Position numbers and translations under genes: made by a program. The notes beneath the pieces were generated by a model, which saw nothing but the letters and a program-made list of their open reading frames with translations, was not told the origin of the DNA and did no database searches. 64,000 nt of DNA from Roseimicrobium sp. ORNL1 (lineage in GTDB: Bacteria; Verrucomicrobiota; Verrucomicrobiia; Verrucomicrobiales; Verrucomicrobiaceae), in contig NZ_CP049143.1 in the NCBI RefSeq assembly GCF_011044495.1, forward strand, positions 7,378,001-7,442,000, in the 5' to 3' direction. Below, piece after piece: positions 23,697-32,875 of the stretch (position 1 is its first letter; every line of letters begins with the position of its first letter).

Positions 23697-23771
23697 TGGA
23701 TCCGGGGGCGGGATTCGAACCAGCGACCTCTCGGTTACAAGCCGAGCGTTCTACCACTGAACTACCCCGGA
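23697..23771 (-). tRNA. tRNA-Thr (anticodon TGT)
   Basis: Read on the minus strand, a full cloverleaf is visible. The acceptor stem is TCCGGGG / CCCCGGA and the D arm GTTCAGTGGTAGAAC. The anticodon stem CTCGG/CCGAG has loop CTTGTAA, giving anticodon TGT, and the T arm has GGTTCGAATCC. The discriminator base is T and CCA is encoded at 23699-23697. It reads ACA threonine codons. Confidence 0.97.
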
Positions 23772-23916: not shown

Positions 23917-24345
23917 TTAGTCTGGTGAGCGTCCCGGGCCAAAGAGCTTTTGCCAAAAAGTGGGTCTAGACTCCCGCCTTCTGACAGAATCAATCAGCGC
24001 TTCTTGGTCGCGAAAAACCTCAACCGTTTTGCCGGAACCAGATCCATCAAACAAAGCCCATTCGGTAAGTGGATCTGTCTCCAGCATCTGCAGAGCATAG
24101 GCCCGCGCGTCACTCAGTGACGGAAAGAGGAGAAATTGCTCTTCATCTGTCCTCAACCATGCACCAGACTGGTGGTCGACCAGCCTTCCGTTGTTGGGGT
24201 CCAGCCTGATCAAAGCACCTTGCTCTGGTCTTAAGCAGTCGAGAGTCTGAACGAGTGCGATGGGGTCCACCTGAAGCTGGGATGAGTTGTATCTGCCTTT
24301 GAGTGTACCACCCACGGGCGAATTTTGCAGATTTCCACTCGACAC
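23917..24345 (-). CDS. Hypothetical protein (142 residues)
   Basis: This is a 142-residue acidic soluble protein that starts with GTG at 24345, preceded by GGGAAGG. It contains VDPIALVQTLDCLRPEQGAL, then LFPSLSDARAYALQMLETDP, then SRPTFWQKLFGPGRSPD at the end. No family recognised. Divergent from the GbsR/MarR-like regulator with 44 bases between starts, so the two share a control region and the gene could be regulated by it. Confidence 0.6.
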   Translation of the reverse strand: MSSGNLQNSPVGGTLKGRYNSSQLQVDPIALVQTLDCLRPEQGALIRLDPNNGRLVDHQSGAWLRTDEEQFLLFPSLSDARAYALQMLETDPLTEWALFDGSGSGKTVEVFRDQEALIDSVRRRESRPTFWQKLFGPGRSPD

Positions 24346-24389
24346 CTTCCCATTCTTCAGCTATTTCTGTCTTAACCGAAAAGACTGAC

Positions 24390-24932
24390 ATGACGGACCT
24401 GCCGCCCATCACCCGCAAATTCATCCTCCACTGGGGTGAGATGGGCGTGCGCTGGGGCATCAACCGGACCATGGCTCAGATCCACGCGCTCCTGTACCTC
24501 TCGGAGCGCCCGCTCAATGCAGAGGAAATCTGCGAGGCGCTGGAGCTGGCGCGGTCGAATGTCAGTGTGTCCCTCCGTGAGCTTCAGGGCTGGGGCATTG
24601 TGAAGCTGGTGCACCTGTCGGGCGACCGCCGGGACCACTTCGAGAGCATGAAGGACGTCTTTGAGATGTTCCGCGTCATTGCGAACGAGCGCCGCCGCCG
24701 CGAGGTGGATCCTACGCTGAAGCTCATCGAGGACTGCCTGGAAGACGCGGGCAAGGAGAAGAAGGGCGAGGAATATGTGCGCGCCCGGCTGACCTCGATG
24801 AAGGAATTTTTCGAACTGGCCACGACCTTTGCCAATCAACTCGAGCGCCTTCCCACCGGTTCGCTGGTGAAGGTCGCCCGCATGGGGGACAAGGCGGTCA
24901 AGCTGCTCGGTCTGGGAGGCCAGGGAAGCTGA
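24390..24932 (+). CDS. GbsR/MarR-like winged-helix transcriptional regulator
   Basis: This is a 180-residue DNA-binding regulator. The winged helix spans about residues 20-90 (NRTMAQIHALLYLSERPLNA, then EEICEALELARSNVSVSLRE, then LQGWGIVKLVHLSGDRRDHF). The C-terminal half is a long helical dimerisation region, as in GbsR-type MarR relatives. ATG 24390 is chosen at the domain start. It is the first gene of the plus-strand cluster to 29.7 kb and is followed after 50 bases by the MBOAT gene. The 19 bases before its ATG (AACCGAAAAGACTGAC) resemble those before the MBOAT ATG, a possible shared control site, so self-control plus control of the cluster is likely. Confidence 0.85.
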   Translation: MTDLPPITRKFILHWGEMGVRWGINRTMAQIHALLYLSERPLNAEEICEALELARSNVSVSLRELQGWGIVKLVHLSGDRRDHFESMKDVFEMFRVIANERRRREVDPTLKLIEDCLEDAGKEKKGEEYVRARLTSMKEFFELATTFANQLERLPTGSLVKVARMGDKAVKLLGLGGQGS

Positions 24933-24982
24933 GGTCGCTTTTTATTTGCCATTGAATTTCGTTTTCTACCGAAACTACCGAC

Positions 24983-25810
24983 ATGAACGCCACAACCGCC
25001 ATTGCCGAAACCCTGCCCCGCTGGGTCACCATGTGGCTGCTCGCGGCGGCAATCTTCTACCTGGGCAAGGCGGCCATGTGGATGCTCACCCCCGCGCCGA
25101 AGGGCGGCAGAAACACGATGCTCACCGCCGGCTGGTGGCTCGCCTGGCCGGGCATGAGCTTGAACGGCTGGAACAAGTGGCCTGCACGGAAGGAAACGAA
25201 AGACGCGGGCAAGATAGGTGCCCTCTGGCTGGATGGCATCCGCAACATCCTCTTCGGTGCGGCGCTGCTGTGGGGAATGGCGCGACTCTTCAGCCACCAC
25301 CCGCTCGCTGCAGGCTGGGTGGGCATGATCGGGCTTATCTTCCTGCTGCACTTCGGTGTGTTCCATCTCGTCACCGCCTTCTGGGGTGGACTCGGCATGA
25401 AGGTGAAACCGGTGATGCGCAATCCCCTTGCCGCCACCACCCTGGCGGAGTTCTGGGGTCAGAGGTGGAACACCTCGTTCCGGGACCTCGCGCACCGTAC
25501 GCTCTTCATTCCGGTGGCGCGTCGTTTCGGTGAGAACGGAGCCACGTGGTTCGTCTTCGCCATCTCGGGACTCGTGCATGAGCTGGTGATCAGCGTGCCA
25601 GCGGGCGCGGGGTATGGACTGCCCACCGCCTACTTCCTGGTGCAGGGCGCGGGACTCATCATGGAGCGGCGCTACTGCAAGCTGCCCACCACCATCAAAC
25701 ACCTCCGCACCCTGCTCTTCACCACGGTGCCTGCCTTCTTTCTCTTCCATCCGCCTTTCGTGGAGGGCGTCATGGTCCCCTTCTTCCACGCCATCGGAGC
25801 CCTGCCATGA
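24983..25810 (+). CDS. MBOAT / wax-synthase-like membrane O-acyltransferase
   Basis: This is a 275-residue inner-membrane protein with about seven hydrophobic segments. The signature is EFWGQRWNTSFRDLAHRTLF followed by the invariant-looking His in FAISGLVHELVIS, as in wax synthases and related membrane-bound O-acyltransferases. Such enzymes move an acyl group to a hydroxyl acceptor, for example a fatty alcohol or a glycan. It is shorter than typical MBOATs (about 400-500 residues) but near the size of the wax-synthase branch core. Its stop overlaps the next gene by 4 bases (ATGA). The acceptor and donor are unknown. Confidence 0.82.
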   Translation: MNATTAIAETLPRWVTMWLLAAAIFYLGKAAMWMLTPAPKGGRNTMLTAGWWLAWPGMSLNGWNKWPARKETKDAGKIGALWLDGIRNILFGAALLWGMARLFSHHPLAAGWVGMIGLIFLLHFGVFHLVTAFWGGLGMKVKPVMRNPLAATTLAEFWGQRWNTSFRDLAHRTLFIPVARRFGENGATWFVFAISGLVHELVISVPAGAGYGLPTAYFLVQGAGLIMERRYCKLPTTIKHLRTLLFTTVPAFFLFHPPFVEGVMVPFFHAIGALP

Positions 25811-26244
25811 ATGCCTATTCGCTCATCACTCTGGAGAACCTGCTGCTGCTCGCAGGTCTCGGCCACTTCGCCATCCTCTCTGCCACCGCGCTGGTGCCAA
25901 AGGTGCTCGACTGGAAGAGCACGCTGAAGCCACTGCCACCCTTCCTGCGCACTCTGTTCTGGGTGTATGGGGTGTTCATTGTGCTGACCATCATCGGCCT
26001 GGGGACGCTCACGCTGTTTCATGCGGATGCCATGGTGAAGGGTGAACCCACGGCGCGTGGGCTGGCCGCATTCACCGCGGTGTTCTGGGGTGCGCGACTC
26101 CTCGTGCAGCTCTTTGTCTTCGAGACTGGTCCCTACCTCACCAATGCCTGGCTGAAGCTGGGCTACCACGTGCTGACCGCGGCCTTCGTCTTCTTCACCA
26201 CCGTGTACACCGTCGCGGCGCTGCACCTGACGATTTGTTTCTGA
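25807..26244 (+). CDS. Small four-helix membrane protein
   Basis: This is a 145-residue integral membrane protein with four predicted helices (LITLENLLLLAGLGHFAIL, VYGVFIVLTIIGLGTLTLF, AAFTAVFWGARLLVQLFVF, HVLTAAFVFFTTVYTVAAL). No named family. It is translationally coupled to the MBOAT gene. It shares layout and short motifs with the gene at 27226-27660 (VLDWK/ILGWK, FWGARL/FWGIRC, four helices), so the two look like diverged paralogues. Confidence 0.75.
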   Translation: MNAYSLITLENLLLLAGLGHFAILSATALVPKVLDWKSTLKPLPPFLRTLFWVYGVFIVLTIIGLGTLTLFHADAMVKGEPTARGLAAFTAVFWGARLLVQLFVFETGPYLTNAWLKLGYHVLTAAFVFFTTVYTVAALHLTICF

Positions 26245-26274
26245 TACACCACGAATCCCCATCTATTCACGGTT

Positions 26275-27192
26275 ATGCACAAGGGAAAGATCATCATCGC
26301 CGGAGGCAGCGGATTCCTGGGAATCGCCCTGGCGCGTCATCTCACCGATGAAGGCTACGAGGTCTTCATCTTGTCGCGTCACCTCCTGCCACCCGGTGTG
26401 CCTGCGAGATACATCCACTGGGATGGGAAGACCCTGGGCGCGTGGGCAGCGGAGCTGGAAGGCGCCACGGCCGTGGTGAATCTCACCGGGAAGAATGTGA
26501 ACTGCCGCTACACCACGACGGCGCTGGATGAAATCAACGGATCACGGGTGGACTCGGTGAAGGTGCTTGGCGAAGCCATCCGTGCCTGCCGTTTCCCGCC
26601 CGGTGTGTGGGTGCAGGCTGGATCGCTGGCCATCTATGGAGATGGCGGTGAGCACGAATGTGATGAAACCACACCCCATGGTGAAGGCATCCCGGTGGAC
26701 ACTTGTTTGAAATGGGAGAGTACTTTCGATGCGGAGGTCACACCGCACACGCGCAAAGTCATCTACCGCATCAGCTTCGTACTCGGAAATGGCGGCGGTG
26801 CCCTGCGCATGCTGACCAATCTCACCAAGTGCTACCTCGGCGGCGCGATTGGAAACGGCCGCCAGTACATTTCGTGGCTCCACGTGGAGGACATGAACCG
26901 CCTGTGGCTGCGTGCCATCGAGGACGAGCGCATGAACGGCACGTACAACGCGACGGCGCCGAACGCAGTGACGAACGCCGCATTCATGCACGAGCTGCGC
27001 AGCGTGCTGCACCGTCCGTGGAGTCCGCCCATGCCGGCATTCCTCGTGCCTATTGGCTGCTTCTTCCTGCGCACGGAGCCGGTGCTCGCGCTCACGGGAC
27101 GGCGGGGCATTCCCGCTCGACTCACACAGGAGGGCTTTGAGTTCCACCACACGGAACTGCCCGAAGCACTGCGCGATCTTTTTGCCAAGTAA
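26275..27192 (+). CDS. TIGR01777-type NAD(P)-dependent epimerase
   Basis: This is a 305-residue short-chain dehydrogenase/reductase-fold protein of the TIGR01777 (YfcH/SulA-like) group. Visible: the nucleotide-binding GGSGFLGIAL, the VVNLTGKNVNCRYT segment diagnostic for the group (usually NLAG..I..RRW), SRVDSVKVLGEAI, the QAGSLAIYGDGGE active-site segment, and KVIYRISFVLGNGGGAL. It differs from the norm in having Asn/Thr where NLAG is usual. These proteins occur in envelope and lipid gene clusters but their reaction is not established. Lies 30 bases after the small membrane protein. Confidence 0.88.
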   Translation: MHKGKIIIAGGSGFLGIALARHLTDEGYEVFILSRHLLPPGVPARYIHWDGKTLGAWAAELEGATAVVNLTGKNVNCRYTTTALDEINGSRVDSVKVLGEAIRACRFPPGVWVQAGSLAIYGDGGEHECDETTPHGEGIPVDTCLKWESTFDAEVTPHTRKVIYRISFVLGNGGGALRMLTNLTKCYLGGAIGNGRQYISWLHVEDMNRLWLRAIEDERMNGTYNATAPNAVTNAAFMHELRSVLHRPWSPPMPAFLVPIGCFFLRTEPVLALTGRRGIPARLTQEGFEFHHTELPEALRDLFAK

Positions 27193-27225
27193 CCAACCTA
27201 CACCGCATCACACCACACTACTGCC

Positions 27226-27660
27226 ATGAACACGCTCATTGAATTCGCCCGCACGCATCTGGAACTGTTCCTCCGCATCGTCGCCGTGGCGCAGTTCTCC
27301 CTGGTGATCGCGAACCTCTTCATCGCGCGCATCCTGGGCTGGAAGCCGGAGATCGATCGCATGTCGCTCCTGGTACGGGAGGTGTTCATCATCCACTCGT
27401 GGTTCATCACCATCACCCTGGCCATCTGGACGGTGCTCACGTGGCGCTTCGCGCATGAAATGGCGCATGCGCCCACCGAGCTCTCGCGCTGGCTGTGCTG
27501 GGCCATGGCGGGATTCTGGGGCATCCGCTGCGCCGCCCAGTGGCTGCACTACAGCCCGAGCCACTGGCGCGGCATTCCGAGCCGGACGTTTTTTCACTGG
27601 CTGTTCTTCCTCGGCTATGGCACGTGGACCGCGGTGTATGCACTAGCGGCGACGGCGTAG
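27226..27660 (+). CDS. Small four-helix membrane protein, paralogue of 25807-26244
   Basis: This is a 144-residue integral membrane protein with four predicted helices. Compared with the gene at 25807-26244 it keeps the order of helices and short motifs (ARILGWKPEIDR vs PKVLDWKSTLKP; FWGIRCAAQWL vs FWGARLLVQLF). Two such paralogues flank the epimerase gene, which suggests they form a heteromeric membrane unit with the MBOAT enzyme. No named family; function unknown. Confidence 0.75.
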   Translation: MNTLIEFARTHLELFLRIVAVAQFSLVIANLFIARILGWKPEIDRMSLLVREVFIIHSWFITITLAIWTVLTWRFAHEMAHAPTELSRWLCWAMAGFWGIRCAAQWLHYSPSHWRGIPSRTFFHWLFFLGYGTWTAVYALAATA

Positions 27661-27836
27661 CGGGGAAGTTTTGGATGAAATGGAGACTTGTGAATTGCTG
27701 AGAGAAAAGAAAGGGGAACATGGTCATGAAACACTCCGGCGAAATGGAAGCGGGAGTTGGAGGATTGGGTGAGCGAAGGAAAGTGTGCGCTGTCGAGGAG
27801 GATGGAGATGCGCTGGGACATGCCACACCAATGGGG

Positions 27837-27926
27837 GCAGGAATGCCCCCACTCCTTGAAGGCGGGCTACACGTTGCACGCGAAGGAGCACCCATTGCTT
27901 TCTCAAGGAGCGGGGGCATTCCTGCC
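27837..27926. repeat. Inverted pair of ~26-bp repeat units (GCAGGAATGCCCCC family)
   Basis: GGCAGGAATGCCCCCACTCC at 27837 onward returns in inverted form at 27902-27926 (CTCAAGGAGCGGGGGCATTC), with about 38 bases between. The first 26 bases are identical to 37806-37831. This is a REPIN-like doublet inside the otherwise tight cluster, between the membrane-protein gene and the DUF2071 gene. The 353 bases from 27661 to 28013 hold nothing else convincing. Confidence 0.85.
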
Positions 27927-28013
27927 CCCGACTACGTTGCATCACCCCTGATACACCATCACACCCCAGCAGAAGAACCACCCAGCGCCTCCGCCCGCGC
28001 CCGCCTGCTCGCC

Positions 28014-28766
28014 ATGCGCGGCGGCGAACCGCTGCTCTTCGCCGATTGGGAGCGCGCCCTCATGCTGCACTACGAGGTCGCACCGGAGAAGCTGCAACCC
28101 TTTGTCCCCTTCCCTCTCGATATCCGCGAGGGCAAGGCCTACGTGAGCCTCGTCGCCTTCACCATGCGCGGCATGCGACCGCGGCATGGCGGGAAGCTCG
28201 GCAAGCTTTCCTTCAAGCCCATCGCTACCCACGGCTTTCTCAACGTGCGTACGTATGTGAAGCACCACGGCGAGCGCGGCATCTACTTCCTGTCCGAGTG
28301 GTTGCCCAACAAACTCGCCGTGCTGCTGGGCCGCCCCGTGTTTGGCTTGCCCTATCGCTTGGGCAAGCTGGACTACCGGCATCATCACGAGCGCGGGCGG
28401 CTGCGTGGTAGTGTGATCCCTCGCAGCAGTAAACGCATAGACACGGGAGCCGCTGTGCTGCGCTATCGCGCGACCTTGCCCATGCACCCCACGTTCCGCC
28501 CTGCGGAGCCCGGCTCACTCACCGAGTTCCTCATGGAGCGCTACACCGCCTTCACCACCTGGCTGGGTTGGAAGCGTTGCTTCCGCATCTGGCATGAACC
28601 GTGGCCGCAGTGCGAGGTGGAGGCTGTCATCGAAGACGACAGCCTCATGTCCCTCACCGGCGACTGGGCCAGACACGCCCGCTTCATCGGCGCCAACTAC
28701 TCGCCTGGCTTGCGGGATGTGTGGATGTCTCGCCCCACCCGCGCCAGTCGCCGCCCTCGTCTCTAA
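28014..28766 (+). CDS. DUF2071 family protein
   Basis: This is a soluble protein of about 250 residues in the DUF2071 (YqjF-like) family. Landmarks are LLFADWERALMLHYEVAPEK, then LQPFVPFPLDIREGKAYVSL with VAFTMRG, FLNVRTYVKHHGERGIYFLS, and a C-terminal FLMERYTAFT. The fold is related to acetoacetate decarboxylase, but no function is established. The start is doubtful: the frame is open back to 27720 through the palindromic repeat at 27837-27926, and about ten residues before Met28014 (SARARLL) also look family-like. The repeat may have landed in or just before the original 5' end. Confidence 0.82.
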   Translation: MRGGEPLLFADWERALMLHYEVAPEKLQPFVPFPLDIREGKAYVSLVAFTMRGMRPRHGGKLGKLSFKPIATHGFLNVRTYVKHHGERGIYFLSEWLPNKLAVLLGRPVFGLPYRLGKLDYRHHHERGRLRGSVIPRSSKRIDTGAAVLRYRATLPMHPTFRPAEPGSLTEFLMERYTAFTTWLGWKRCFRIWHEPWPQCEVEAVIEDDSLMSLTGDWARHARFIGANYSPGLRDVWMSRPTRASRRPRL

Positions 28767-28791
28767 CCAACTTCAGAAAGGAATCAACACC

Positions 28792-29253
28792 ATGAACACC
28801 ACTGCACTCGCAACCATGAACCATGCTCCGGACGTAGGAGCCACCACGCCTCAACTCACACTCGGTGAATGGAAAACGCTTCACCGCATCAAGACCGCCG
28901 CACGCCTGAGCATCGGCCTCGTGTGGGTATGGGAGGGTTTGATGCCGAAGATGCTGTTTCCCAATGCGACCCAGTTTGAAATGGTGCGCCGCAGCGGCTG
29001 GTGGGTCGGCTCTCCGGAAGCCACACTGTGGTGGCTAGGCGCCGCGATGGTCGTGGCAGGCCTCGCCATCATGAGCGGCATCTGGGAACGTGCCGCCGCC
29101 CTTGTTTCAACCCTGGCCGTTCTGATGTTGATGGTGCTGGTCATCGGCACCAACCCCGAGGCGCTGCATGACCCCTTCGGCGGTCTCGTGAAGGACGCCT
29201 GCCTCTTCACCTGCGCCGCACTTGTGTGGTGGTGGCCGCGGGGAAACAAATAA
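28792..29253 (+). CDS. DoxX-like membrane protein
   Basis: This is a 153-residue membrane protein of the DoxX-like superfamily with four predicted helices. Start ATG 28792 follows AAAGGA at a good distance. Motif region: ARLSIGLVWVWEGLMPKMLF, then WWLGAAMVVAGLAIMSGIWE, then a closing helix CLFTCAALVWWWP. DoxX-like proteins often accompany redox or lipid enzymes; the role is not defined. Lies 25 bases after DUF2071 and 9 bases before the next small membrane gene. Confidence 0.8.
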   Translation: MNTTALATMNHAPDVGATTPQLTLGEWKTLHRIKTAARLSIGLVWVWEGLMPKMLFPNATQFEMVRRSGWWVGSPEATLWWLGAAMVVAGLAIMSGIWERAAALVSTLAVLMLMVLVIGTNPEALHDPFGGLVKDACLFTCAALVWWWPRGNK

Positions 29254-29262
29254 TCCATTGCG

Positions 29263-29739
29263 ATGGCACTTGGCTACCTAGAACCCAGAGCGTTGGTTTT
29301 CATTTGTGGGCTGGTCGTACTGCTTTTCTTGTTGGTCCACAGGGAAGCAAAGGGCCATGTCTTGCTTGTGACGGTCTTGGCCTATTGGGCCGCTGTCATG
29401 TTTGTGCTTTACCGGCCCGAGGTGGGTCGTGAGGAACTCCAGGATTTCAAGATGAGTTGGTGCGTAGGTGCCAAGTCTTCCGCGGCACGGGAAGGCGCAC
29501 AAGTGACTTTGACGTTCGTGGACTATCCCGAGCATCATCTGATAGAATACTCCGATGAATTGGCGGAGCACCTGTCCAGGAACGCAAAGGATTGGGTGTC
29601 TGTGAAATTCAAGGTGACCACCGACCACGGAAATGTCAGAGGATTTCAAATGATCGAAATCGACGGCATGACCGATTGGAGATCGAACGGTGGGTATTTG
29701 CATATCGCGGGAGGTACTTCCAGGTCTCCTTGGGATTGA
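29263..29739 (+). CDS. Small membrane-anchored protein, unknown function
   Basis: This is a 158-residue protein with two N-terminal membrane helices (LVFICGLVVLLFLLV and VLLVTVLAYWAAVMFVLY), then an 105-residue soluble domain containing QVTLTFVDYPEHHLIEYSDE and VSVKFKVTTDHGNVRGF. No family recognised. GC and codon use look lower than for the genes before it (AGG, TTG and GGA codons are common), a hint of different origin or weak expression. Starts 9 bases after the DoxX-like stop, so it is the likely last gene of the cluster. Confidence 0.65.
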   Translation: MALGYLEPRALVFICGLVVLLFLLVHREAKGHVLLVTVLAYWAAVMFVLYRPEVGREELQDFKMSWCVGAKSSAAREGAQVTLTFVDYPEHHLIEYSDELAEHLSRNAKDWVSVKFKVTTDHGNVRGFQMIEIDGMTDWRSNGGYLHIAGGTSRSPWD

Positions 29740-29893: not shown

Positions 29894-31618
29894 ATGCCAT
29901 TCATCAAGAGCATTGCCTCACGCATCTTCGGTCTCGCGCTCATCCTCGTGTGCCTGATGATCGCCCTGGTCGGATTCCTTCTCTACCAGGTGGCGGCCTT
30001 GAACGGGCATCTAAAGATCATCGCCGGCTACTACGCCCCCCTGCGACTGACCCTGGTCGATCTCAATGAAGCCGGACTGCGGCGGCGGCTCGCCTTTGAG
30101 CGGTGGCATGCCGCTCTTGAAGCGGGTCAGAGTCGCTCAGCAGCCGTCACCGAAGCTTCGAAGAACTACGAGATCTACAATGCGGCGGTGAAGGAGCGCA
30201 TCGCCGAGGCGCGTGACATGCTGGCCAATGCCCCGGCCGGAAGCACCAACCTGCTGCGCATCCAGCAGGTCAGCGCCCTCCTGGATCAACTGGTGGCCAA
30301 CTACAGCGTGATCCTGAAACGTCAGAACGAGGTGATCGAGCTCATCAAGAGCGGTGAGAAACAGCGCGCTACCGACATCTTGGGAGTCCTCGATGAACTC
30401 CAGGTCATTGTGCAGAAGCAACGCAGCGACATGCAGGGCATCATGGGCGAGGTGATCGCTGCGGCCACGAACGAATCCGCGGCGCGACATGTCAAAATCG
30501 TGTGGACCACCGTGCTGGCCACCGTCACTTCCGTGCTTCTGGGGCTGAGTGTAGCCGCCCTGGTGACGCGCAAGCTGGTGCGGCCGGTGCGTTCCCTGAT
30601 GACGGGGATTCAATCCGTCGAAAAAGGTGACCTCACCGTCCAGCTCCCCGTGGCGACCGCAGATGAGATCGGGGCCCTCACGCGAGCCTTCAATTTCTTC
30701 ATCGCCGAGCTTCGCCAGAAGGAGCAGATGCGCAGCACCTTCGGCAAATACATCGACCCGCGCATCCTGAAGCAGGTGCTCCTCGGGCCGGAGTCCGTTG
30801 CGGCATCCAGCGGAAGGCGTGAGATGTCGGTGTCGTTTTGCGACCTCTCCGGCTTCACCACGATAGGCGAGCAACTCACGCCTGCAGGCGTAGTCAATCT
30901 CCTGAACCGGCACTTCACCCTGCAAGCGGAGGCCATCCAGCAGCAGCATGGCATCGTGGACAAGTTCATGGGCGACGCCGTCATGGCCTTCTGGGGGCCA
31001 CCCTTTTCCACCGAGCAGGGAGACGCCCTGCTCGCGTGCCGCGCCGCCCTGGAGCAAAGGAAGGCGGTGGAGCGCTTGCAAACCATGCTGCCCGAAGTCA
31101 CGGGCCTGCGGAAGAATCTGCCGCAACTCGATCTGCGCCTGGGCATCAGCACCGGCGAAGTGGTGGTGGGAAACATCGGCTCGGAGAACACCCGCAGCTA
31201 CACCGTCATCGGTGACACCGTGAATCTGGCATCGCGCCTTGAGCACGTGAACCGCTTCTACGGCACCCACATCCTCATCTGCGGCAACACCCGCACCGCC
31301 GCCGGCGAGGCGATCGTCACGCGTGAGATCGATACCATCATCGTCAAAGGCAAAACCGAAACGACCAGCATCTACGAACTGCTGGGGCTGGCCGGAGAAG
31401 TGCCGGAGAGTACGCTCGCCCTTTGCCACCGCTCCGCCGCCGGCCTTGCCGCGTATCATGCCCAGGACTGGGACACAGCGGAGACAGCATTCCGCGAGTG
31501 CCTCGCCATGGACCACGAGGACGCCCCTGCCCGGATCCTTCTCGAGCGCGTCTACAATTTCCGTCTCTCACCACCCGCTCCGGATTGGAATGGCGCGTGG
31601 GTTTTCGACGTGAAGTAA
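29894..31618 (+). CDS. Membrane adenylate cyclase with HAMP domain (class III)
   Basis: This is a 574-residue sensor cyclase that would make cAMP. Order: membrane helix (about 10-33), a periplasmic helical sensor (34-200), a second helix (about 202-222), HAMP (about 223-275, KLVRPVRSLMTGIQSVEKGD), and the class III catalytic domain (about 300-490). Metal aspartates are Asp317 (FCDLSGFT) and Asp361 (GDAVMAFWG). Lys357 just before the second suggests ATP rather than GTP. VIGDTVNLASRLE gives the transition-state Asn/Arg region. The last 75 residues (LALCHRSAAGLAAYHAQDWD onward) form a TPR-like helical tail as in some CHASE2/HAMP cyclases. Sensor ligand unknown. No cAMP-binding regulator nearby. 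Confidence 0.92.
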   Translation: MPFIKSIASRIFGLALILVCLMIALVGFLLYQVAALNGHLKIIAGYYAPLRLTLVDLNEAGLRRRLAFERWHAALEAGQSRSAAVTEASKNYEIYNAAVKERIAEARDMLANAPAGSTNLLRIQQVSALLDQLVANYSVILKRQNEVIELIKSGEKQRATDILGVLDELQVIVQKQRSDMQGIMGEVIAAATNESAARHVKIVWTTVLATVTSVLLGLSVAALVTRKLVRPVRSLMTGIQSVEKGDLTVQLPVATADEIGALTRAFNFFIAELRQKEQMRSTFGKYIDPRILKQVLLGPESVAASSGRREMSVSFCDLSGFTTIGEQLTPAGVVNLLNRHFTLQAEAIQQQHGIVDKFMGDAVMAFWGPPFSTEQGDALLACRAALEQRKAVERLQTMLPEVTGLRKNLPQLDLRLGISTGEVVVGNIGSENTRSYTVIGDTVNLASRLEHVNRFYGTHILICGNTRTAAGEAIVTREIDTIIVKGKTETTSIYELLGLAGEVPESTLALCHRSAAGLAAYHAQDWDTAETAFRECLAMDHEDAPARILLERVYNFRLSPPAPDWNGAWVFDVK

Positions 31619-32137: not shown

Positions 32138-32356
32138 GGAGGCTCACACCATGGCACAGGCCGGCGCAACGCGCCACGGACGCAAAGCGTGTCTCAGGCG
32201 ACGCGCCCTCCCTCAGTCAGAAAACAACCGCCGTGTTTCAAAAAGACTTCTTGAAAGGAAAGCCACTCTGCCTCTCGTAAATGCGGCGGAGATGCGGCAC
32301 AGTGTGTGCGTATTCTTCTCCGCTACCGCATTCCCCGCTCCTTCCTGTTCCTGCTC

Positions 32357-32875
32357 ATGAAACTCCGCCCCACGCTCCTTTCGCTCGCCACCGTTCTTGG
32401 GTGCCTCATGGCTTTGCCCACCGTATCCCCCGCCCAGGACAAGGGGGACAAGCCGCTCAAGCTCGACAAGTCCACCACCGACAAGGCCAAGCAGATGTTC
32501 GACAAGCTGGTGGGTGAGGCCAAGGAAGCCGTGAAAGAAGGCGGAGAAAAAGGGAAGGACCTTTGGGAGCGCACCAAAGAAAACTTCAGCATGAGCCGCG
32601 AGGACTACATCAAGAAGGTGAACTCCGGCCTCGCCACCATGGACGCGGAGATCCAGGCCCTCGTGGAAAGCGGCGGCGCGGTGATCTCGCGGGATTATTT
32701 CAAGACCCGCATTGAATCGCTCAAGCAGCAGCTGGACTACTGCAGACGCGACTTCGCGCGCCTGCAAGAGGCGGCCACCGATGAAGCCTTCCGTGTGAAA
32801 CAAAGAGGTTTCGACCGTGGGCTTGACTTCCTTGGTGAGAACATTGGACTCGCGAAGGAAGAGGCCGGGCTATAA
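32357..32875 (+). CDS. Secreted helical protein, unknown function
   Basis: This is a 172-residue protein with a signal peptide (MKLRPTLLSLATVLGCLMAL, cleavage likely after SPA). The mature part is highly charged and helical: KAKQMFDKLVGEAKEAVKEG, then an 85-residue predicted coiled coil (LATMDAEIQALVESG, YFKTRIESLKQQLDYCRRDF). Probably periplasmic; could oligomerise. Start ATG 32357 chosen for the signal peptide. No family recognised. Confidence 0.75.
   Translation: MKLRPTLLSLATVLGCLMALPTVSPAQDKGDKPLKLDKSTTDKAKQMFDKLVGEAKEAVKEGGEKGKDLWERTKENFSMSREDYIKKVNSGLATMDAEIQALVESGGAVISRDYFKTRIESLKQQLDYCRRDFARLQEAATDEAFRVKQRGFDRGLDFLGENIGLAKEEAGL

Follow-up and report, generated by a model that had tools for sequence, protein, structure and literature searches.

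A predicted acyl-transfer operon pairing a compact MBOAT_2 enzyme with a four-helix membrane protein in Roseimicrobium sp. ORNL1 and its relatives

We analysed a stretch of 64,000 nucleotides (nt) from Roseimicrobium sp. ORNL1, hereafter the window, with respect to a run of genes centered on a predicted acyltransferase of the MBOAT_2 family. In this genome (G000; 7.96 Mb, a single contig) seven plus-strand genes occupy positions 24390-29253 of the window: a GbsR/MarR-type regulator (marR, 24390-24932), the predicted compact MBOAT_2 acyltransferase (wax, 24983-25810), a four-helix membrane protein that we propose as a partner subunit of wax (h1, 25807-26244), an atypical short-chain dehydrogenase/reductase (SDR) of the TIGR01777 family (epi, 26275-27192), a paralogue of h1 distinguished by clade-specific histidines (h2, 27226-27660), a DUF2071 protein of the acetoacetate-decarboxylase-like fold family (27720-28766), and a DoxX_3 membrane protein (28816-29253). 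The ATG of h1 lies over the stop codon of wax in a 4-nt overlap (25807-25810), and the gaps amount to 50 nt between marR and wax, 30 nt between h1 and the SDR gene and 33 nt between the latter and h2. The start of the DUF2071 open reading frame (ORF) is probably annotated too early: homology begins only near 27963, and the gap that separates it from h2 is therefore given as a range, from 59 nt (ORF start) to about 300 nt. The DoxX_3 frame as called from 28594 overlaps the DUF2071 gene, and the likely start is the ATG at 28816, which agrees with an alignment of 13 sequences.

A preliminary description of this DNA had recognised the same stop/start overlap and had proposed a regulated cluster of eight plus-strand genes. 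All eight ORFs are indeed present, and profile matches uphold each of its family calls (MarR_2, MBOAT_2, TIGR01777, DUF2071 and DoxX_3). The eighth ORF, a small plus-strand membrane protein at 29263-29739, has to be separated from the other seven, which are conserved together: an ORF search of 28 other loci, including L022 from the same genus, recovered only the protein itself, and blastp, set to 1e-8 and half coverage, found no match to it in the pooled loci described below. On these sequence comparisons it is not a member of the conserved unit.

The wax protein matches Pfam MBOAT_2 (PF13813) with 43.2 bits against a cut-off of 25 (E 4.8e-11), and a Pfam scan up to E 1 returned this domain only, with no WS/DGAT domain. 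When its AlphaFold2 model (predicted local distance difference test score, pLDDT, 85.7) was compared with known structures, the top 24 rows were all MBOAT entries with Z-scores of 9.5-14.7, and the next row stood at 7.2. These include DGAT1 (6vyi; Z 14.7, root-mean-square deviation (rmsd) 4.7, 257 residues aligned) and DltB (8jem; Z 14.3, rmsd 4.0, 242 aligned), the closest bacterial structure. As the model aligns only to DltB residues 111-412, about 110 N-terminal residues of DltB lack a counterpart in the 275-residue wax protein. Asn163 and His199, which we take to be the MBOAT catalytic pair, are invariant in 25 wax sequences. Fold and residues together support the prediction of acyltransferase chemistry, namely acyl transfer to a membrane-soluble acceptor.

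The model of h1 is a confident four-helix bundle (pLDDT 90.5). The h family is without a Pfam model, with nothing better than E 0.028 across 38 members; a PDB sequence search with its profile reached E 0.2 at best, and Foldseek with the h1 model gave no match at E 0.001 or better. Structure comparison ranked a designed bundle first (Z 9.9, rmsd 2.9, 116 aligned); the best natural membrane proteins were the IgE receptor beta chain (Z 8.9, rmsd 4.7, 130 aligned) and the sigma-2 receptor (Z 8.0, rmsd 4.0, 128 aligned). TMEM35A, a DoxX-like protein, is one among many helical-bundle rows (Z 7.4, rmsd 3.9, 114 aligned). These matches may reflect only the arrangement common to helical bundles. Kinship of h with the operon's DoxX_3 or with a small three-transmembrane-helix family drew no support from hhalign, the probabilities being 0.1 and 0.9. 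The paralogy of the two four-helix proteins, suspected earlier, is borne out by a single profile that finds both and by a tree of 38 rows, in which the 23 labelled h1 and the 15 labelled h2 fall on opposite sides of one branch (support 94/68), with labels assigned by position and histidines and two long L036 branches uncertain. Because each side of the tree holds rows from both phyla examined here, Verrucomicrobiota and Planctomycetota, the duplication seems to predate the divergence of the phyla, or else transfer has spread it.

The conservation of the gene set was assessed across 57 sampled genomes, with loci comprising the wider DNA around 15 of 17 wax-bearing genomes, the window itself as another, and 13 further loci from a named collection; G037, a 20-bit match, was omitted. 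The full order marR-wax-h1-epi-h2-DUF2071-DoxX recurs in L022, L026, L027, L030, L032, L034 and L037, of which L027 and L037 represent one genome, and the wax proteins of these loci are 39-89% identical to that of the window (in an alignment with L037 and without L027). Partial sets are without the SDR (L025, L029, L031), without DUF2071 (L023, L024, L035), or, in other loci, without more. The order is thus kept in other genera and families, as befits the operon-like unit initially proposed, whose author had named a lack of such conservation in related genomes as a refuting result, an outcome that did not arise.

A pooled count took loci picked for wax and scored genes on the same strand within 6.5 kb by blastp at 1e-8 with half coverage, leaving aside L037 as a duplicate and L047-L049 as too distant; several loci are truncated by contig ends, and the phylum labels of the G genomes reached via loci are inferred. 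In Verrucomicrobiota an h gene adjoins wax in 26 of 26 loci, accompanied by the regulator in 23, the SDR in 17, DoxX_3 in 13, DUF2071 in 12, and two h genes in 14. The Planctomycetota loci have h in 20 of 23 (L130, one of the three without it, ends at a contig edge), the regulator in 7, DUF2071 in 3 and two h genes in 3. The same pairing was found in genomes not picked for wax. In a sample of 193 genomes from the window's phylum the wax profile finds a match in 63, in nine of them with at least 200 bits, while the other 54 score at most 41 bits and are mostly frames of about 450-570 residues typical of ordinary MBOATs; h matches occur in 14 of the 193, and in all nine strong-wax genomes one lies beside wax (within about 400 nt). 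Among 195 genomes of the phylum of G242 (labelled Pirellulales), 18 carry wax at 190 bits or more and 18 have h matches, and in 15 of the 18 strong-wax genomes h lies within about 200 nt on the same contig, the exceptions being G336, G262 and a contig-edge fragment in G339. Judged by gene neighbourhood, the core of the cluster is the pair of wax and h. A search of plasmids yielded no wax homologue.

A gene fusion points in the same direction. In G127 wax and h1 form a single frame of 459 residues (L105:6906-8285) between the regulator and SDR genes, with h1 C-terminal. A triple fusion with the epimerase, suggested by an 897-residue frame in L105, was rejected: its N-terminal part lies in another frame and only wax and h1 are fused. 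Of ten full wax frames scanned, six (L034, L035, L122, L123, L125 and L126, all above cut-off) carry a DCC1-like thiol-disulfide oxidoreductase domain (PF04134) N-terminal to MBOAT_2, and those of L042, L045, L103 and L128 are without it; L039 and L042 have a separate DCC1-like gene between regulator and wax. The Pfam scan of the window operon found no such domain.

The remaining genes recur in other company. In G109 (L106), with no wax nearby, DUF2071 is packed closely with an h2-like gene and the SDR; in G452 (L141) DoxX_3, DUF2071, a methyltransferase and h follow in a row; and in G226 (L113) an h match lies between a methyltransferase gene, which follows DUF2071, and a DoxX_3 gene on the opposite strand. 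The L113 h match (G226:C10:71469-71858) contains one in-frame TAG. In a sample centered on G250 (labelled Proteobacteria) h matches were found in 2 of 188 genomes, one of them G452. DUF2071 is near the h genes away from wax in L106 and L113, and by eye no common neighbours were recognised in six further such loci (L107-L112). Because sets of h and DUF2071 thus occur with a methyltransferase or SDR and without wax, we consider, from gene content, that wax plus h1 on the one hand, and h, DUF2071, often DoxX_3 and an enzyme on the other, are separable modules.

The regulator matches Pfam MarR_2 (E 6.9e-10), and its best solved relative is Mj223 (1ku9; E 1e-15 over residues 11-141); mean column identity is 60% over 20 sequences from two phyla. 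It scores 55.3 bits against the CudC equivalog of NCBIfam, far under the cut-off of 218. Two palindromic operator candidates, which have no strand of their own, were identified: TTTCTGTCTTAACCGAAA at 24364-24381, 26 nt before the regulator start and an exact match to the general pattern TTTCnGTnnnnACnGAAA, and TTTCGTTTTCTACCGAAA at 24957-24974, 26 nt before wax and with one mismatch. Predicted plus-strand promoter-like elements of marR, picked by eye with letters and coordinates verified, are TCGACA (24339-24344), a 17-nt spacer and TATTTC (24362-24367). Of 29 loci from two phyla, 19 have TTTCnGTnnnnACnGAAA exactly upstream of the regulator gene, 24 if one mismatch is tolerated and 26 if two are (dinucleotide-shuffle means 0.0, 0.01 and 0.33); as the pattern was derived from these very sequences, the counts are descriptive rather than predictive. 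L123 contributed no regulator upstream, its regulator gene being truncated by the contig end. Of 52 wax upstreams, 12 contain the pattern when one mismatch is tolerated and 16 when two are (shuffle means 0.03 and 0.30). The most diverged regulators, those of L116 and L117, have different palindromes at the same place, as judged by eye. A palindrome common to the regulator and wax upstreams accords with the regulation claimed in the preliminary description.

Among the matches listed, the one exact occurrence of TTTCnGTnnnnACnGAAA in G000 lies at the regulator's own promoter, which suggests local autoregulation. In a scan of nine genomes the exact matches away from the operon, among those listed, number one in G095 and one in G048. 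With one mismatch allowed, forward counts fell under those of a backward-pattern control in seven of the nine genomes, the others being G048 (20 versus 9) and G095 (13 versus 9); since forward counts are mostly under the control, one-mismatch sites elsewhere are uninterpretable. Autorepression of the operon via TTTCnGTnnnnACnGAAA-type sites would be the simple reading.

As for the other three families, the SDR passes the TIGR01777 cut-off of NCBIfam (238.6 bits versus 207.35) and also matches the Pfam DUF1731 and Epimerase domains; against the ThyD equivalog it reaches 188.7 bits, under the cut-off of 400. The DUF2071 protein matches PF09844 with 146.7 bits (cut-off 27; E 9.7e-43) and passes the cut-off for Pfam ADC as well (45.7 versus 29.8 bits). 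In 15 operon DUF2071 proteins no invariant column is a lysine, in keeping with a published analysis in which the Schiff-base lysine of acetoacetate decarboxylase proved not to be conserved in PF09844 (PMC4520260). A PDB sequence search with the DUF2071 alignment gave nothing at E 0.1. DoxX_3 (PF13781) is matched with 55.8 bits (cut-off 25; E 7.1e-15). G000 has three further above-cut-off DUF2071 matches, at C1:2281230, 936171 and 4297188. L023 and L024 are without DUF2071 in the vicinity of the operon, and in them a second DoxX_3 gene separates h1 from the SDR, which may hint at a replacement.

Because the gene order recurs in other genera and families, h adjoins wax and is once fused to it, palindromes precede the regulator and wax, wax has an MBOAT fold with invariant Asn163 and His199, and the modules recur, we read the seven genes as a single, autoregulated operon whose products would carry out acyl transfer within the membrane, h1 being the partner subunit of the enzyme, a reading in which our confidence is about evenly balanced. 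A dimer of the regulator would occupy both conserved palindromes, that of its own promoter and that preceding wax, and would leave the DNA when a ligand appears. The MBOAT_2 protein would act as the catalyst and, on the evidence of fold and invariant residues, transfer an acyl group, most likely from acyl-CoA, to the hydroxyl of a membrane-soluble acceptor. The adjacency of h1 and its natural fusion are compatible with a physical complex with wax. The SDR, h2, DUF2071 and DoxX_3, which are observed together, may constitute another module, separable from the first, for producing or modifying the acceptor, and the product would most likely be an acylated lipid or an isoprenoid-like small molecule.

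Several observations weigh against this reading. The distribution of wax is patchy (17 of the 57 genomes sampled, the window's own included; 12 of 24 genera), and all seven genes stand together in just seven other loci from six genomes. By the pooled criterion the SDR and DoxX_3 are found in 0 of 23 Planctomycetota loci, so the full pathway is unnecessary for wax plus h. Even the pair is not strict: in the 193-genome sample five of the 14 h-bearing genomes are without strong wax, and in G336 and G262 h was undetected beside strong wax. The palindrome counts carry the circularity already mentioned, and in G000, at no more than one mismatch, the pattern matches six sites versus ten for the backward-pattern control. 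Finally, the same-family loci L024-L027 share downstream flanking genes with the window, and some of the within-family synteny is therefore simple inheritance.

These shared flanks are also what speaks for a chance neighbourhood, or an inherited order without functional unity; this is already contradicted by the adjacency of wax and h in two phyla, the G127 fusion and the one type of palindrome before regulator and wax, and we regard it as extremely improbable. More substance attaches to acylation of an envelope polymer in the manner of the Dlt or alginate systems, with an exported polymer or protein receiving acyl groups from the MBOAT. No bacterial structure is closer than DltB, and a small protein with a signal-like N-terminus, encoded 3 kb downstream at 32306-32875, has relatives directly after DoxX_3 in L024-L027. 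This protein, however, has no Pfam match above cut-off and was seen in no loci outside the window's own family; partners shared across lineages look membrane-embedded or cytosolic, unlike exported transferases, the type represented in Dlt systems by DltD. On balance we consider this unlikely.

A storage role, with a plant-type wax synthase making wax esters or similar neutral storage lipids, is favoured by the match to PF13813, by the resemblance of the model to diacylglycerol and sterol acyltransferases, and by the gene of the acyl-adenylating GH3 family that adjoins the wax-h pair of L046. Yet inspection by eye, from the first 80 residues, recognised no family for fatty-alcohol formation or acyl activation in the listed clusters of recurrent neighbours, and the SDR, DUF2071 and DoxX_3 families are not known to act in storage. 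The usual bacterial wax-ester route is described as that of WS/DGAT enzymes (PMC10351704). Of the pathway first proposed for the locus, acyl modification stands as a prediction, whereas wax-ester storage has no specific support and appears decidedly unlikely. The operon could instead serve as a redox or osmotic stress module at the membrane, with acylation in a secondary role. The DCC1-like domains fused to wax in six frames or encoded separately in two loci would fit such a role, as would the response of GbsR-type regulators of known function to choline and betaine, and of one relative to sulfate (PMC6207618), and the involvement of the TIGR01777 relative ThyD in high-light acclimation (PMC12288457). 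The window operon is without a DCC1-like domain, however, its regulator lies far under the CudC cut-off, and among the clusters listed no osmolyte or redox gene was recognised as a recurrent neighbour. We regard a stress module as quite unlikely.

Within the acyl-transfer reading a bolder version may be set out, although we hold it to be tentative and rather unlikely. The system could be a split MBOAT, its compact core, devoid of the classical N-terminal helices, being completed by the four-helix h1; in the sole wax-h1 fusion h1 is at the C-terminus, and in other lineages the DCC1-like domain is at the N-terminus. Under a dedicated local repressor it might make an as yet undescribed acylated membrane lipid in Verrucomicrobiota and Planctomycetota, with DUF2071, h2 and DoxX_3 as a membrane platform of general use whose partner enzyme is now an SDR, now a methyltransferase.

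The acyl-transfer operon as read above ties the function-orphan families TIGR01777, DUF2071 and DoxX_3, together with a membrane family outside Pfam, to an enzyme whose chemistry can be predicted and to a well-defined candidate site of control. It could also bring to light an MBOAT that needs a partner within the membrane, and a lipid peculiar to the two phyla.

Some features of the surroundings may be recorded. A tRNA-Thr gene (tgt; 23697-23771, minus strand) lies upstream of the operon, near this patchily distributed gene set, and just downstream (29894-31618) a gene for a HAMP and class III adenylate/guanylate cyclase protein is 86% identical in the same-genus L022. A strongly conserved family of membrane proteins of about 125 residues stands beside the operon in seven loci (L126:4870-5241, L028, L042, L105, L122, L123 and L125), and four members scanned gave no Pfam match above cut-off. 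The GH3-family gene adjoining the planctomycete wax-h pair lies at L046:9591-11228, and YndJ and a CAAX-type protease accompany some Planctomycetota loci.

The operon can be set against described systems. With the Bacillus yndGHJ-type operon it shares YndJ (PF14158) in four Planctomycetota wax loci (L116, L117, L126 and L130), but neither YndJ nor DUF4166 was found among ten window proteins scanned up to E 1. In one study yndJ figures as a biocontrol marker of unknown function (PMC8147159). Genes for DUF4166 and YndJ adjoin in a Haloarcula and a Bacillus plasmid, and a 147-residue frame before DUF4166 in the latter, at one time taken as DoxX-like, has no Pfam match. DUF2071 neighbourhoods on plasmids, inspected for 3 of 29 records, carry no annotated operon of this kind. 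A search of open-licence papers gave no joint mention of DUF2071 and TIGR01777, nor of any two of YndJ, DUF2071 and DoxX; a single paper mentioned DUF2071, and among the matches listed no title describes this operon. ThyD, a thylakoid protein that also affects cell division (PMC12288457), is akin to the window SDR, which lies above the TIGR01777 cut-off but fails that for ThyD. With the GbsR repressors the regulator shares Mj223, its best solved relative and the template for GbsR models (PMC6207618), but it falls below the CudC cut-off and stands beside acyltransferase genes; the portions of that source consulted describe an aromatic inducer cage for GbsR, and in them no palindrome or ligand of this kind was found for the family. 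The MBOAT_2 domain is carried by plant wax synthases, and wax resembles them in exceeding the Pfam cut-off for it and differs from them in its operon partners. With the MBOATs of known structure, DltB, DGAT1, ACAT1, PORCN and HHAT, it has in common the fold and the invariant Asn163 and His199, and it differs in its small size, in covering DltB from residue 111 onwards only, and in being paired, and once fused, with a four-helix protein. As a catalyst wax falls into a known class; no description of its four-helix partner family, of the palindrome or of the gene set came up in the literature searched.

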